The position numbers and the translations under genes are program-made. Below the pieces are notes generated by a model, which was given only the letters and a program-made list of their open reading frames with translations, had not been told where the DNA came from and made no database searches. Of a stretch of 64,000 nucleotides of DNA, positions 1,746 to 9,260 are shown in pieces (within the stretch, counting starts at the first letter, position 1; every line of letters starts with the position of its first letter). The DNA is from Betaproteobacteria bacterium Ga0077540 (GTDB lineage Bacteria > Pseudomonadota > Gammaproteobacteria > Burkholderiales > Methylophilaceae), in NCBI GenBank assembly GCA_001464125.1, contig LNEP01000012.1, positions 186,001-250,000 on the forward strand, written 5' to 3'.

Positions 1746-2294
1746 ATGAGCGAAAAAATAATTATGCGTGTAGGTGAGGCATTAGTTGCTGGCGGCCCTG
1801 TAGGCACAGCGGCTGAACCCGAAGTAGCGATTGGGGAGATGGATGGCCCAATGGGGGTTGCGTTTGCAAACCTGTTAGGTGACCAAGTAAAAGGCCATAC
1901 TCGCGTGCTAGCGATTATGAATACCGATATTATGGTGCGCCCTGCCACCATCATGGTCAGCAAGGTCACGGTAAAAGACACCCGCTACACCAATATCTTA
2001 ATGGGTACAGTACAAGGTGCCATTGCCAATGGTGTGCTGGATGCAGTGCGCGAAGGATATATCCCAAAAGAAAAAGCCAATGATTTAGGCATTATTGTGT
2101 CTGTTTGGCTTAACCCCGTGGTGGTTGAGCAAGACAATCTAGACCATAAAGTATTGTTTGAGATTCACCGTAAGGCGACTACATTGGCGATTAAAAAGGC
2201 GATGTGCAATGAGCCCAGTATTGATTGGTTGTTGGAACATCAAGATGAAATTGTGCACAAGTATTATGAAATGGGTTTAGATGGAAAGATTTAG
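1746..2294 (+). CDS. Formaldehyde-activating enzyme (Fae) homologue
   Basis: A 182-residue single-domain protein of the Fae family. Canonical Fae condenses formaldehyde with tetrahydromethanopterin. Matching landmarks are VGEALV near the N-terminus, LAIMNTDIMVRPATIMVSKVTVKD (compare the Fae pattern LAVIAPN...KPNTLMFNKVTIND), AVREGYIPKEKANDLGIIVSVWL, and the helix KATTLAIKKAMCNEP. The segment that carries the conserved histidine in classical Fae (an AHIDL context, from memory) reads EPEVAIG here, so that residue seems to be missing. This fits a divergent Fae2-type paralogue whose reaction is not established. It appears monocistronic: divergent from transketolase and closed by a hairpin terminator. 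The ribosome site is GAGAG upstream of the ATG. Confidence 0.85.
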   Translation: MSEKIIMRVGEALVAGGPVGTAAEPEVAIGEMDGPMGVAFANLLGDQVKGHTRVLAIMNTDIMVRPATIMVSKVTVKDTRYTNILMGTVQGAIANGVLDAVREGYIPKEKANDLGIIVSVWLNPVVVEQDNLDHKVLFEIHRKATTLAIKKAMCNEPSIDWLLEHQDEIVHKYYEMGLDGKI

Positions 2295-3408: not shown

Positions 3409-3962
3409 CACGCTTCCTTCCATTTAATACTGCATCCTATACTGGATATCTGTTCTTGAGGCCCATGCCCAGTTTCAGCCACTAACTTCATGGCATGGAA
3501 TAAATCCCTTGTGCTATTGGGTGCCGTTTCTTTGCGGCTTTCGTCAAACCGGCCACGGTATTGCAACTCAAAATTTTTATTAAAGCCAAAAAAGTCTGGT
3601 GTACATACTGCGTCATAGCGTTTTGCAACTTGCTGGGTTTCATCTAACAAATAGGGGAAAGGAAACGCCATTTCTTGCGCTATCTTGCGCATATTTTCCA
3701 GGCTATCTTCAGGGTAATCGGTCGGATCGTTAGACATAATCGCCACCGCATATACCCCTAATGCTCGCAGTTCTTTTACATCTGCAATCAGACGCGGCAG
3801 TATCGCTTTAACGTAAGGGCAATGGTTGCATATAAACATGACCAGCAGGCCGTTTGGCCCCATGCTTTCTTTTAAACTCATCGTCTTGCCATCAACATCA
3901 GGTAAATTATAATCCGGCGCTTGCCAGCCAAATGTACATACGGGTGGGTGGATACTTGCCAT
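3408..3962 (-). CDS. Thioredoxin-fold (AhpC/TSA-like) protein with CNHCPY motif
   Basis: A 184-residue cytoplasmic protein of the AhpC/TSA-redoxin type often annotated 'thioredoxin family protein'. It begins APDYNLPDVDGKTMSLKE, then has the redox-site region VMFICNHCPYVKAILPRL with a CxxC pair, followed by DDPTDYPEDS-like and FPYLLDETQQVAKRYDAVCTPDFFGF segments. No signal peptide is seen. The start is chosen at ATG 3962 (MASIHPP) with GGAG upstream; the longer frame would need a TTG. It overlaps the Gfo/Idh gene by ATGA. The exact peroxidase or reductase function is unknown. Confidence 0.85.
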   Translation of the reverse strand: MASIHPPVCTFGWQAPDYNLPDVDGKTMSLKESMGPNGLLVMFICNHCPYVKAILPRLIADVKELRALGVYAVAIMSNDPTDYPEDSLENMRKIAQEMAFPFPYLLDETQQVAKRYDAVCTPDFFGFNKNFELQYRGRFDESRKETAPNSTRDLFHAMKLVAETGHGPQEQISSIGCSIKWKEA

Positions 3963-3986
3963 GCGGGACTCCAATCAATCTATAAT
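3956..3986 (+). promoter_or_regulatory. Possible promoter for rsmE
   Basis: A perfect -10 TATAAT (3981-3986) lies 31 bp before the rsmE ATG. A TTGCCA at 3956-3961 could be the -35, but the spacer would be 19 bp, which is long. The site supports the later rsmE start over the earlier in-frame codons. Confidence 0.4.
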
Positions 3987-4017
3987 CTGCATGTTACCAT
4001 TTTTCACTTTGTACCAC

Positions 4018-4752
4018 ATGTCACAACACCGCTTTTACTGCCCTGACAGGCTTTCTGTAGGCGCTATCGCCTCTCTACCAGAAACAGCCGCTACGCATGC
4101 TGCTCGAGTGTTGCGCATGCAAGTGGGAGACGCTGCCATTTTATTTAATGGCGATGGTATTGATTACGCGTGCGAATTGGTCAGCGTACAAAAAAGTGGC
4201 GTGACAGCTCGCATTCTCTCAAGCAAGGTCGTCACAAGCGAATCTCCACTCGACATCCTACTACTGCAAGGTATTTCTAGCGGGGACCGTATGGATTACA
4301 CCATACAGAAAGCAGTAGAGCTGGGCGTTCGTGCTATTCAACCGATTGCCACTGAGCGCAGTGTGGTTAAATTGAATCAAGAACGCGCCGAAAAGCGTTT
4401 AGCGCATTGGCAACAAATTGTAATTTCTGCTTGCGAGCAATGTGGCCGTGCTTTTGTGCCAGAGGTACTCGCCCCTCTCTCCTTAAGCCAATGGCTGGCG
4501 CAACACCCTCAAGATGAGGCTAGCCGAATTTTGCTTAACCCCACTGGCGCTAAGCAACTGGCACAACTTTCAAAACCACTTAACCAAGTTCAACTATTGA
4601 TAGGCGCTGAGGGTGGGCTTAGTCCAAGCGAAATCGATACCGCAACCGCGCATGGCTTTCAATCCATTATTCTAGGCCCACGTATTTTGCGCACGGAGAC
4701 AGCAGCACTCACTGCGATTGCGAGCATGCAGACACTTTGGGGTGATTTTTAA
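4018..4752 (+). CDS. rsmE: 16S rRNA (uracil1498-N3)-methyltransferase RsmE
   Basis: SPOUT-class RNA methyltransferase that methylates U1498 of 16S rRNA with S-adenosylmethionine. The 244-residue product starts MSQHRFYCPDRLSVG, has the N-terminal PUA-like domain (HAARVLRMQVGD), then the knot domain with DRMDYTIQKAVELGV, SACEQCGRAFVPEV, the SAM-binding loop IGAEGGLSPSEI, and the C-terminal signature LGPRILRTETAALTAIA. An ATG lies 19 codons upstream in frame, but the family start and a TATAAT at 3981 favour 4018. Transcribed divergently from the thioredoxin-fold gene. Confidence 0.95.
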   Translation: MSQHRFYCPDRLSVGAIASLPETAATHAARVLRMQVGDAAILFNGDGIDYACELVSVQKSGVTARILSSKVVTSESPLDILLLQGISSGDRMDYTIQKAVELGVRAIQPIATERSVVKLNQERAEKRLAHWQQIVISACEQCGRAFVPEVLAPLSLSQWLAQHPQDEASRILLNPTGAKQLAQLSKPLNQVQLLIGAEGGLSPSEIDTATAHGFQSIILGPRILRTETAALTAIASMQTLWGDF

Positions 4753-4770
4753 CTTAACCCATCAAATAAT

Positions 4771-4785
4771 TTGTATTAATTACAA
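4771..4785. promoter_or_regulatory. Operator copy 1, TTGTATTAATTACAA
   Basis: A 15-bp inverted repeat (TTGTA...TACAA arms around TTAAT) that covers the -35 element of the argA promoter. It is identical to copy 2 at 4802-4816. Its position and dyad symmetry are those expected of a repressor site. The obvious candidate regulator is the HTH domain encoded immediately downstream. Confidence 0.6.
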
Positions 4786-4799
4786 TATTTATTTAAAAT
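4771..4799 (+). promoter_or_regulatory. Promoter of the argA fusion gene
   Basis: TTGTAT (4771-4776), a 17-bp spacer, and TAAAAT (4794-4799) form a good sigma-70 promoter. Transcription would start near 4806, about 25 bp before the ATG, with AAGG as ribosome site at 4820-4823. The -35 hexamer is the first six bases of operator copy 1. Confidence 0.6.
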
Positions 4800-4801
4800 A
4801 A

Positions 4802-4816
4802 TTGTATTAATTACAA
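4802..4816. promoter_or_regulatory. Operator copy 2, TTGTATTAATTACAA
   Basis: A perfect second copy of the 15-bp dyad, 31 bp (about three helical turns) from copy 1, lying over the predicted transcription start. Two in-phase sites on one face of the helix suggest cooperative binding. Confidence 0.6.
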
Positions 4817-4830
4817 ATTAAGGTGTATTT

Positions 4831-6420
4831 ATGTCGATTGGCAATCAAATCCGCAAGTTACGTAAAGCACAGAATGTCACGTTGCAGCAACTTGCTCAGC
4901 TAACGGAATCTGATGCTGGTAATTTATCGCGTATTGAGCGTGGAGTGTTGGGCGTGTCAGAAGCACTGATTCGAAAAATTGCCGCGGCTTTGAATACCAC
5001 GCCTGCTGCCCTGTTTGTTGAGCATGGGACTTCACCCGGCCAGATAAAAAAAGTAAATGCTCACTCTCAAGCATCAGCAATACTTGACAGTAGCAACACC
5101 AAAGACTTTGTGCATTGGTTTCGTTCGGCGGCACCTTACATTCACGCCTTTGGTGGCAGAACTTTTGTCATTGCGTTTGGTGGTGAGGTAGTCAGTGAGC
5201 AGCAATTTATCGCACTCTCGCACGACTTAAATTTGCTAGCCAGCTTAGAAGTACGGTTAGTGTTGGTACATGGTGCGCGTCCACAGATTGAACAAAGGCT
5301 CAATCGCGATAAGCTTACACCGGCTTATCACAATGGCTTACGCATTACCGATGATGCCGCGATGGAGGCGGTAAAGGAAGCCAACGGTGCAGTACGGGTG
5401 GAAATTGAAGCATTACTCTCGATGGGTATCGCCAACTCGCCGATGGCAGGTGCCGATATTCGTGTTGCTAGCGGAAACTTTGTTACTGCAAAACCACTTG
5501 GCGTTCTAGATGGTGTTGATTTGCAGCATACGGGCGAGGTGAGAAAGGTGGATGCAATTGGCATTCAAAAGCGTTTAGACGATGGTGAGTTGGTATTGCT
5601 ATCCCCCATGGGTTACTCCCCTACTGGTGAAGCGTTTAACTTGAGTTTAGAAGATGTGGCTGTGAGTACCGCCATTGCTTTAGATGCGGAAAAACTGATT
5701 TTCTTGATGGACTCAGAAGGCGTGCACAATTTACGTGGCGAGTTATTGCGTGAGATGACTGCAGAGAAAGCTAAAAACTTACTGAAAAATGTGCAAGAAA
5801 GCGACGAGCCCATTCATTTTTCTGAAGACGTGAATTTCTATTTACCCGCCGCAGTTCAAGCTTGCGAGCAAGGCGTAGCTAGGACGCACCTGATTTCTCG
5901 TCATATTGATGGTGCCATTATTCAAGAGTTGTTTACGCACAATGGTATTGGCACCATGATTACCGAACTACCTTTGGAAACCATGCGCCAAGCTAATATT
6001 GATGACGTGGGTGGCATTCTCAAACTTATTGAGCCATTGGAGAATGATGGCATTTTGGTAAGGCGTGGACGCGAACGCATAGAAATGGAAATTAACCATT
6101 TTTATGTGATGGAACATGACAACCGCGCCATTGGTTGCGCTGCGCTTTACCCATTTCAAAAAGAGAAAATGGCTGAATTCGCTTGTTTAGCGATAGATCC
6201 TCAATACCGTGGGGGAGGCCGTGGCGATAAACTTTTTAACTACTGCCAAGCGCAAGCTAAAAAATTGGGATTCAATCAACTATTCTGTTTAACCACGCGT
6301 ACCGAGCATTGGTTCTTAGAACGGGGTTTTATTGAAGAGTCGATTGACGAATTGCCGCAAGAAAAGCAGGCCTTATATAACTTCCAGCGCAAATCTAAAG
6401 TGTTTGTTAAACCGCTGTAA
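4831..6420 (+). CDS. argA: N-acetylglutamate synthase with N-terminal XRE helix-turn-helix
   Basis: First enzyme of arginine synthesis (acetyl-CoA + glutamate to N-acetylglutamate), here 529 residues against about 440 for E. coli ArgA. Residues 7-55 are a Cro/C1-type HTH (IRKLRKAQNVTLQQLA, then DAGNLSRIERGVLGVS). Residues 96-380 are the amino-acid-kinase-like, arginine-sensing domain (WFRSAAPYIHAFGGRTFVI, LVHGARPQIEQRL, GADIRVASGNF). Residues 386-525 are the GNAT acetyltransferase (QANIDDVGGILKLIEPLE, DPQYRGGGRGDKL, RGFIEESIDELP, YNFQRKSKV). The linker at 56-95 has no methionine, so a separate ArgA start is unlikely. Two identical dyads sit in its promoter. It is followed after 46 bp by argB. 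I infer an enzyme that represses its own operon. Confidence 0.93.
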   Translation: MSIGNQIRKLRKAQNVTLQQLAQLTESDAGNLSRIERGVLGVSEALIRKIAAALNTTPAALFVEHGTSPGQIKKVNAHSQASAILDSSNTKDFVHWFRSAAPYIHAFGGRTFVIAFGGEVVSEQQFIALSHDLNLLASLEVRLVLVHGARPQIEQRLNRDKLTPAYHNGLRITDDAAMEAVKEANGAVRVEIEALLSMGIANSPMAGADIRVASGNFVTAKPLGVLDGVDLQHTGEVRKVDAIGIQKRLDDGELVLLSPMGYSPTGEAFNLSLEDVAVSTAIALDAEKLIFLMDSEGVHNLRGELLREMTAEKAKNLLKNVQESDEPIHFSEDVNFYLPAAVQACEQGVARTHLISRHIDGAIIQELFTHNGIGTMITELPLETMRQANIDDVGGILKLIEPLENDGILVRRGRERIEMEINHFYVMEHDNRAIGCAALYPFQKEKMAEFACLAIDPQYRGGGRGDKLFNYCQAQAKKLGFNQLFCLTTRTEHWFLERGFIEESIDELPQEKQALYNFQRKSKVFVKPL

Positions 6421-6430
6421 GCTTTTTTAG

Positions 6431-7351
<921 letters not shown>

Positions 7352-7975: not shown

Positions 7976-8608
7976 ATGCAAACAAAGACGTGGATTTTTG
8001 ACTTAGACGATACGCTGCACAATGCCTCTGCGCATATTTTTCCTGTAATGAACCAAGCCATGACGCAGTACATCATGGATGAACTGAATTTAGAGGAACA
8101 CTCAGCGCATCAACTCAGACAGCATTATTGGCGTATCTATGGCGCAACCTTAAAGGGTTTAATGCGGCATCATGGGGTCAATGCATATCATTTTCTTAAT
8201 CAAACGCATGCACTGATGGATTTACCCAATATGGTGATACAAGTAAAACGCTTGCGCCATACCTTGCAACAGCTTAAAGGACGTAAGTGTGTATTCACTA
8301 ACGCACCTCGGGCTTATGCCATTCGCGTGTTAAAACTGATGGGCATAGACGATTGTTTTGAGTTTGTATTCAGTGTGGAGTCCAGCAAGTTTCACGCCAA
8401 ACCCAGTGTGCGTGGCTTTCAAATGTTATTAAATACACTGAATGTCAACGCCAGCGATTGCGTCATGCTGGAAGACAATTTACCAGCATTGATGACCGCT
8501 AAACGTTTAGGCATGCAAACCATTTGGGTGACACGCAAGCTGAATAAACCAAATTTTGTCGATTTTAGAATCAACTCTGTGCTGGCACTCGCGCACCATA
8601 GGCTATAA
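7976..8608 (+). CDS. HAD-superfamily pyrimidine 5'-nucleotidase
   Basis: A 210-residue haloacid-dehalogenase hydrolase of the yeast Sdt1/Phm8-like subgroup, expected to dephosphorylate pyrimidine nucleoside monophosphates. Motif I is FDLDDTLHNASAHIFP (DxDxT nucleophile), a helical cap follows (YHFLNQTHALMDL), motif II is FTNAPRAYA, the motif III lysine region is HAKPSVRGFQMLL, and motif IV is CVMLEDNLPALMTAKRLGM. It is followed by slmA on the same strand after about 70 bp, an arrangement I recall from other Betaproteobacteria. Confidence 0.9.
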   Translation: MQTKTWIFDLDDTLHNASAHIFPVMNQAMTQYIMDELNLEEHSAHQLRQHYWRIYGATLKGLMRHHGVNAYHFLNQTHALMDLPNMVIQVKRLRHTLQQLKGRKCVFTNAPRAYAIRVLKLMGIDDCFEFVFSVESSKFHAKPSVRGFQMLLNTLNVNASDCVMLEDNLPALMTAKRLGMQTIWVTRKLNKPNFVDFRINSVLALAHHRL

Positions 8609-8681
8609 TTCCAACTCTTATTTGATTCATTGTGCATGAACAACCGCACACATTCTGCGTAACACATAGCTAAGGAAAATG

Positions 8682-9260
8682 ATGGCTTCTGACCGCAAAC
8701 AACAAATTTTGGAAACACTTGCCCAAATGCTTGAGGCACCCAAGCGAGAAAAAATCACCACTGCGGCGTTGGCTGCAAAACTGGAGGTTTCTGAAGCGGC
8801 GTTGTATCGCCACTTTGCGAATAAAGCGCAAATGTTTGAAGGCTTGATTGAATTTATCGAAAACTCCATTTTCGGCATTATCAACAAAATCACCACGGAT
8901 GAAATGGATGGCGCCAAACAGGTGCAACTGATAGTCAGTATGTTGCTGCGTTTTGCGGAAAAAAATCCTGGGATGACGCGTGTGTTGATTGGCGATGCTT
9001 TGGTGAACGAGGATGACGCATTGCAGTTACGCATTAACCAATTGCATGACCGCATTGAAGCCAGTATCAAACAGTCCCTTAAAATTGCGATTGCACAAGG
9101 TGAGAACAAACAGGACCCAACAGTGTTGGCAAGCTTGGTCACTTGCTATGTGATTGGGCGCTGGCAACAATTTGCCAAAAGTGGCTTTAAGCGTAAACCG
9201 CTTGAATCATCGACCGAACAAATTGCGTTAATGCAGCGTTTAATCCACTTTGTCAGCTAA
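8682..9260 (+). CDS. slmA: Nucleoid occlusion factor SlmA
   Basis: TetR-family DNA-binding protein that blocks FtsZ ring assembly over the nucleoid. The 192-residue sequence follows E. coli SlmA closely in order: QQILETLAQMLE, EKITTAALAAKLEVSEAALYRHFANKAQMFEGLIEFIE (the HTH), FAEKNPGMTRVLIGDAL and RINQLHDRIEASI. Two consecutive ATGs occur; the second (8682) is better spaced from AAGGA. Its partner ftsZ lies in the same window at 16-17 kb. Confidence 0.95.
   Translation: MASDRKQQILETLAQMLEAPKREKITTAALAAKLEVSEAALYRHFANKAQMFEGLIEFIENSIFGIINKITTDEMDGAKQVQLIVSMLLRFAEKNPGMTRVLIGDALVNEDDALQLRINQLHDRIEASIKQSLKIAIAQGENKQDPTVLASLVTCYVIGRWQQFAKSGFKRKPLESSTEQIALMQRLIHFVS

Follow-up and report, generated by a model that had tools for sequence, protein, structure and literature searches.

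Arginine biosynthesis is the textbook example of split control, in which ArgR acts on the genes and arginine acts on ArgA. In the 64,000-nucleotide stretch of Methylophilaceae DNA analyzed here (the window), the gene for ArgA, N-acetylglutamate synthase (NAGS), opens with a helix-turn-helix (HTH) domain of the CI/XRE type, which raises the question of whether one protein might serve both as the feedback-controlled enzyme and as the repressor of its own gene. We consider autorepression highly probable: judged from the sequences compared below, the synthase would also repress its own gene through the HTH and two operators, blocking transcription of argA. Whether arginine takes part in this control is a separate matter, on which the readings diverge.

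The HTH-ArgA frame and its conservation

Positions 4831-6420 form a single open frame of 529 codons plus stop, and the uninterrupted HTH plus complete ArgA claimed by the original prediction was confirmed by the frame itself and by Pfam and NCBIfam matches (Table 1). The HTH_3 profile aligns at E 4.2e-8 and 33.5 bits (gathering cut-off 23), so the domain stands as predicted, while its limits in the profile match are residues 7-59 rather than the 7-55 given at first; HTH_31 matches residues 3-59. On the enzyme side, the Pfam GNAT match covers residues 418-501, and two NCBIfam ArgA equivalogs span nearly the whole remainder, NF003641 at residues 88-529 (699.5 bits, cut-off 344) and TIGR01890 at residues 93-529 (591.3 bits, cut-off 202.85). 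The equivalog scores suggest that the ArgA part has kept its catalysis, and both the catalytic and the DNA-binding module appear intact within one polypeptide, with computed masses of 58 kDa for the full-length fusion and 48 kDa for ArgA alone. The predicted structure (mean pLDDT 83, pTM 0.65) displays a five-helix HTH, followed by a stretch with pLDDT < 50 at residues 65-88 and then by ArgA. In a Foldseek search with this model, the two best solved matches were N. gonorrhoeae NAGS entries.

Table 1. Features of the HTH-ArgA locus. Coordinates are positions in the window; a full stop in the strand column marks features given without strand.
Feature	Location	Strand	Basis or remark
rsmE, upstream gene	3961..4752	+	NF008692
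Predicted operator 1, TTGTATTAATTACAA, TTGTA-N5-TACAA inverted repeat	4771..4785	.	Motif search, family pair
-10-like element TAAAAT, weak	4794..4799	+	17 bp after TTGTAT; read from sequence
Predicted operator 2, identical 15-mer TTGTATTAATTACAA	4802..4816	.	31 bp downstream of operator 1
Shine-Dalgarno-like AAGGTG	4820..4825	+	Read from sequence
Fusion gene, CI/XRE-type HTH + N-acetylglutamate synthase, 529 aa	4831..6420	+	ORF, profile matches, family conservation
HTH domain, residues 7-59	4849..5007	+	Pfam HTH_3; five helices in predicted structure
Recognition-helix region DAGNLSRIERG, residues 28-38	4912..4944	+	Family alignment
Linker, residues 63-92	5017..5106	+	Variable in length and sequence; pLDDT < 50 at 65-88
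N-terminal helix of ArgA, residues 85-107 in model	5083..5151	+	Predicted structure
Amino-acid-kinase-like regulatory domain, residues 111-356	5161..5898	+	Pfam AA_kinase
K288	5692..5694	+	By count along the alignment, arginine-binding K201 of N. gonorrhoeae NAGS
Arginine-site motif ELFTHNGIGT, residues 366-375	5926..5955	+	Family alignment, PMC4490483 motif
GNAT catalytic domain, about residues 384-528	5980..6414	+	Pfam, NCBIfam, alignment
argB (N-acetylglutamate kinase), next gene	6467..7351	+	TIGR00761, 257 bits, cut-off 151
Ser30 loci with TTTGCA...TTTTGCAAAA	110 bp before argA		L010, L011, L013-L018, L020, L023, L024, L026, L027, L031, L129

The host family consists of bacteria living on methanol and methylamine; a protein of the formaldehyde-activating enzyme (Fae) family, as expected in a methylotroph, is encoded at window positions 1746-2294 (TIGR03126, 133.9 bits, cut-off 118). 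From 187 family genomes, 176 of which gave a match at E <= 1e-50, we read 170 loci in 24 genera; the 17 genomes outside this set comprise 11 without a match at that threshold and 6 with protein pieces only. The HTH lies in frame in 169 of the 170 orthologues, across all 24 genera, with alignments starting at query residue 1-7. Likewise, 169 family loci translate without a stop from the HTH on, the one from genome G140 ending with its contig. The single exception, G181, is broken by a stretch of N at the HTH-linker junction, for which reason we rejected it as a natural fission of HTH and ArgA. As the HTH-ArgA frame is conserved across the family, a frameshift or assembly error, which the original prediction had named as a refutation, is excluded. 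HTH_3 was matched at E <= 0.001 by 42 of 42 sampled family members. The fusion is kept even in small genomes of 1.2-1.4 Mb. Among the small-genome genera, g15 (all 16 genomes read) and g2 (24 of 31 read) both retain the HTH, which has diverged in g2.

The search for XRE-ArgA fusions that had been proposed as a check thus found them family-wide and in none of the other-family ArgAs among the matches listed. These matches came from 399 further genomes of the order (375 with a match) and 369 of the class (259 with a match). Among those listed, ArgAs of other families show no recognizable HTH; their alignments start at query residue 47 or later, mostly at 80-95, and some of them sit in long open frames. 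At 23 sister-family argA loci no HTH was seen by eye ahead of ArgA, the stretch being short in most. A Citrobacter locus (L036), which matches residues 1-85 only, at 34%, was dropped. The original statement that no ArgA of this kind had been described agrees with the open-access PubMed Central literature searched, in which we found no HTH-ArgA; a description elsewhere is possible. The term 'helix-turn-helix' is absent from a NAGS review (PMC4490483).

Comparison of the genomic surroundings offers a hint at the origin of the fusion. The end of rsmE also precedes, by eye, several unfused sister-family argA genes, which points to an insertion of HTH and operators between these two genes in the family ancestor. 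On the other flank, argB is possibly co-transcribed with the fusion gene. Downstream of argB follow a pyrimidine 5'-nucleotidase gene (TIGR01993) and slmA (NF007015), at window positions 7976-9260.

The HTH is under purifying selection: its pooled dN/dS is 0.12, compared with 0.27 in the linker, 0.064 in the kinase-like domain and 0.085 in GNAT (277 non-independent pairs). In the recognition helix, the element of the HTH fold that reads DNA, N31, L32, S33, R34, I35, E36 and G38 each show 95-99% identity across the family (169 rows, one empty). The linker, highest in dN/dS among the four regions, ranges from 6 to 51 residues over 168 loci. Part of the small-genome genus g2 (L051, L052, L055-L057, L059, L060) combines a diverged HTH with a linker of about 6 residues, and these loci provide a natural test of tight coupling between HTH and ArgA.

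Paired inverted repeats ahead of argA

The region from 4760 to 4830, originally proposed as the DNA target of the full-length protein, holds two exact inverted-repeat sites of the kind that recurs at argA in much of the family. The first six bases of predicted operator 1 (TTGTAT, 4771-4776) occupy the -35 position, and operator 2 sits 14 bp ahead of the start codon. Besides these two copies, the window contains no match to TTGTATTAATTACAA with fewer than 3 mismatches. A simple promoter scan of the window found no promoter. With site 1 on the -35 region and site 2 between the -10-like element and the start codon, occupation of the sites should block initiation.

Across the family, the consensus of the operator pair is WTGYRNNNNNYRCAW, with the dialects TTGTA...TACAA and TTGCG/TTGCA...CGCAA. 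A pair with at most 2 mismatches, 28-33 bp apart, is present in 115 of 166 argA upstreams (110 bp searched; the 170 loci minus three with short upstreams and the N-run locus), and the other 51 fall short of the 2-mismatch level. The same pattern occurs in 1.0% of 3320 dinucleotide shuffles, a figure uncorrected for the relatedness of the loci and optimistic, since the pair motif was set by eye from the upstreams that were later counted. Independent checks on the motif come from the sister-family upstreams, the search of whole genomes and the phage loci. None of 23 sister-family argA upstreams contains the pair, the best having 4 mismatches, although these upstreams are the 150 bp before the alignment start and hence partly coding. 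At 78 of the 115 pair loci a hexamer matching TATAAT at 5 or 6 of its 6 positions lies at a spacing of 15-19 bp, as compared to 38% of shuffled spacers; the spacing is 17 bp in 67. The two arms vary together: among 232 sites, positions 4 and 12 hold T-A in 87 and C-G in 49, next to the mixed combinations C-A in 47 and T-G in 23.

At least one pair locus was found in 17 of the 24 genera. The pair occurs at all 46 g18 and all 13 g19 loci, which together supply 59 of the 115, and at only 4 of 21 loci of the window's own genus; genera g3, g11, g13, g14, g21, g22 and g23 have no locus at the 2-mismatch level. Operator and residue 30 of the HTH covary: loci with Gly30 carry the pair in 112 of 140 cases and loci with Ser30 in 3 of 25 (one row empty, relatedness uncorrected), with few events behind these figures because Ser30 is confined to two genera. 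In the window's genus, fifteen loci combine Ser30 with upstreams resembling TTTGCA...TTTTGCAAAA in place of the pair, and this conserved arrangement is a possible second operator dialect.

Genome-wide, the exact form of the site is nearly confined to argA. TTGTA-W5-TACAA occurs three times in the genome that contains the window, and two of the three copies lie before argA. The third (G000:C4:126121-126135, L067) forms a perfect palindrome where a pilin-like gene ends, directly before an apparent GC-rich hairpin and a T run, and probably arose by chance or belongs to a terminator. The eight relatives searched contain 9 exact sites, every one of them 13-50 nt before argA; the sites are spread over seven of the genomes, with none in G116. 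As these relatives, from g1, g18 and g19, were picked for using the TTGTA dialect upstream of argA, a site at argA was to be expected; the lack of further sites, by contrast, is unselected.

Parallels to both the domain and its predicted sites come from phages. The fusion HTH is 50-57% identical to the HTHs of CI-type repressors of temperate phages and of one plasmid-borne relative. Five such repressor genes have 2, 2, 1, 2 and 2 perfect motif matches in the 150 bp upstream, where mononucleotide shuffles yield an expectation of about 0.01 per repressor upstream. The corresponding 150 bp hold no motif in three repressors whose HTHs are 41-42% identical and differ in recognition-helix residues; the eight examined comprise five of the top matches and three lower ones, out of 34 phage and 85 plasmid records. 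Adjacent perfect motif copies are also present at +824 and +839 from the repressor start in L217 (Cronobacter phage ENT47670) and at +825 and +840 in L220, where they perhaps form a second operator region downstream of the repressor gene. The original prediction was right in its observation, and had missed the family-wide scope, the operators and the likeness to phage CI repressors and their operators.

Autorepression, arginine and the competing readings

That the enzyme is its own repressor, the central claim of the original prediction, is well supported by the family-wide fusion and by the operator sites recurring at argA. The HTH, the operators and their near-exclusive location at argA can be read directly from the genomes, and from them we infer enzyme activity, DNA binding and repression. 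CI-type HTHs would pair across the two-fold axis of the ArgA hexamer, and the HTH pairs would bind two operators of the TTGTA-N5-TACAA type about three helical turns apart. Placed on either side of the -10-like element and overlapping the -35 and start-site regions, the operators would allow the bound repressor to block transcription of argA, and perhaps of argB too. Because the sites occur almost only at argA, the circuit would meter the enzyme itself and not an arginine regulon. ArgJ is encoded in the same genome, and ArgA should therefore top up the acetyl cycle rather than carry the bulk flux, in line with the division of flux between ArgJ and ArgA known for the pathway.

The arginine site of the ArgA half is conserved. 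Bacterial-type NAGS is described as a D3 hexamer, with an arginine site made up of the motif E-(L/I)-(F/M)-(T/S)-X-X-G-X-G-T and a lysine of the central sheet; arginine bound against the N-terminal helix triggers a movement of this helix, seen for the equivalent helix of the N. gonorrhoeae enzyme, and a widening of the ring by about 10 angstroms (PMC4490483). In the family, K288 and the motif residues E366, T369, G372, G374 and T375 are invariant in 168 of 168 loci; of the variable motif positions, one is L or I in all 168, and another is F in 165 and Y in 3. Since the HTH is joined to the very helix that arginine moves, and the arginine site is invariant, arginine could gate DNA binding. Arginine at the conserved site would shift the N-terminal helix and the ring geometry, strengthening or weakening DNA binding either directly or through the oligomeric state. 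We place such an arginine-dependent change of DNA binding, a step beyond autorepression itself, just short of an even chance. As the linker is variable and modeled with low confidence, the coupling between HTH and ArgA can only be inferred.

A serious competitor, to which we give somewhat less than an even chance, is autorepression that is blind to the ligand: the HTH would hold the ArgA level constant, and arginine would act on catalysis alone. This reading overlaps with the autorepression proposed above, the gating step being the sole difference. The variable linker, its pLDDT below 50 and its dN/dS, the highest of the protein, point to rigid coupling being unselected in most genera; however, in some g2 genomes the linker shrinks to 6 residues, and helix motion could pass on to the HTH. 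What the same review reports on oligomeric state points both ways (PMC4490483). The P. aeruginosa NAGS hexamer does not dissociate with or without arginine, in agreement with ligand-blind control, whereas the E. coli enzyme interconverts between trimer and hexamer depending on concentration and ligands, a transition by which a multivalent repressor could be gated even if its linker is not rigid.

The most detailed version of arginine-gated autorepression combines gating with a single target and a phage origin, and we offer it tentatively, as distinctly less than evenly likely. The D3 hexamer of ArgA would present three HTH pairs and thereby bridge operators about 30 bp (roughly 100 angstroms) apart. 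By moving the N-terminal helices and widening the ring by about 10 angstroms, arginine would alter the fit to the paired operators, so that one allosteric event would control both the catalysis and the synthesis of ArgA. The HTH and its operator code would have been taken together from a phage CI-type repressor in the family ancestor, with half-site sequence and recognition helix co-evolving since the capture.

A different reading would make HTH-ArgA a wider repressor of the arginine pathway, an ArgR replacement with targets besides argA, which we regard as improbable. ArgR is indeed undetected in the family: none of the 187 family genomes and none of the 399 order genomes scored above the cut-off of PF01316 (2 and 8 of them, respectively, gave sub-threshold matches), whereas 8 of 14 control genomes did, and PF01316 is not among the Pfam matches of the fusion protein. 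ArgR is, however, equally undetected in the sampled relatives that lack the fusion, so that neither a replacement of ArgR in Methylophilaceae nor ArgR loss as the cause of the fusion is indicated. The fusion rather seems to have arisen on an ArgR-less background; a comparative study reports ArgR as retained by many groups of gammaproteobacteria but by none of the other proteobacterial classes (PMC5343134). Further targets were not apparent either. In the genome of the window, no arginine gene recognizable from the reading frames adjoins any of the sites that lie outside argA and have at most 1 mismatch, the 301 bp ahead of the argJ match contain no motif at this level, and the exact sites of the eight relatives all belong to argA. 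A regulon beyond argA was accordingly rejected for these nine genomes, with the proviso that degenerate sites could escape the search.

It is more improbable still that the HTH is a folding, oligomerization or vestigial appendage without regulatory role. The seven genera without a canonical-pair locus would fit such an appendage, but the conservation of the recognition helix, mostly at 95-99% over 24 genera, the dN/dS of 0.12 and the matching operators do not.

Scarcely credible is an annotation artefact, in which an internal start would yield ArgA by itself and the HTH would be a separate product. In its favor, a GTG is present at codon 94 in the window, and of 169 junctions 25 contain GTG or TTG plus a loose Shine-Dalgarno-like sequence and 19 a bare ATG. 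Against it, the HTH is in frame in 169 of 170 loci, none of the 169 junctions offers an ATG with a Shine-Dalgarno-like sequence, residues 56-95 lack Met as the original prediction had stated, and the GTG at codon 94 has no Shine-Dalgarno-like sequence ahead and as a start would cut into the conserved N-terminal helix.

Relation to known enzyme-repressors

Autorepression by ArgA would place a repressor domain on the feedback enzyme itself, in one family of an order sample in which ArgR was not detected. With 24 genera, linkers of 6-51 residues, operator dialects and a change in the recognition helix, the family supplies a natural series for testing the birth of an enzyme-repressor. Amino-acid production in methylotrophs may also be affected, as argA expression would be self-limited.

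In NadR, BirA and PutA, one polypeptide is likewise a biosynthetic or metabolic enzyme and a DNA-binding repressor. They are built on other enzymes of other ancestry and control more than their own gene, whereas for HTH-ArgA a single target was found. The nearest structural relative is the classical hexameric ArgA of N. gonorrhoeae (PDB 2r8v/3d2p), the best fold match, with kinase-like and GNAT domains alike over residues 91-526 and the arginine-site lysine and E-L-F-T-x-x-G-x-G-T shared; compared to it, the fusion adds the N-terminal CI-type HTH and its own predicted operators. For the added part, the relatives are the CI-type repressors of Cronobacter phage ENT47670, Morganella phage IME1369_01, Salmonella phage Fels-1 and Yersinia phage vB_YenM_30.14, which share the 50-57% identical HTH, a very similar recognition helix and the operator motif before the gene. 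These phage genes are annotated as repressors or transcriptional regulators, are about 650-700 bp long and lack ArgA.

BzdR resembles the fusion in architecture, joining an XRE HTH through a linker to an enzyme-derived, shikimate-kinase-like domain, but this domain has lost catalysis (PMC3602430), whereas the ArgA of the fusion keeps its equivalog scores and its arginine site. PepA and PyrH, trigger enzymes at E. coli carAB, are hexameric enzymes that regulate an arginine/pyrimidine promoter; they act on carAB rather than on their own gene and do not figure as HTH fusions in the passages describing them (PMC6245113). ArgR/AhrC likewise regulates arginine biosynthesis, as a protein unrelated to HTH-ArgA. 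An enzyme acting as its own repressor is thus a known arrangement, while an ArgA with a DNA-binding half resembling a phage repressor, as deduced here from its gene, appears to be new.
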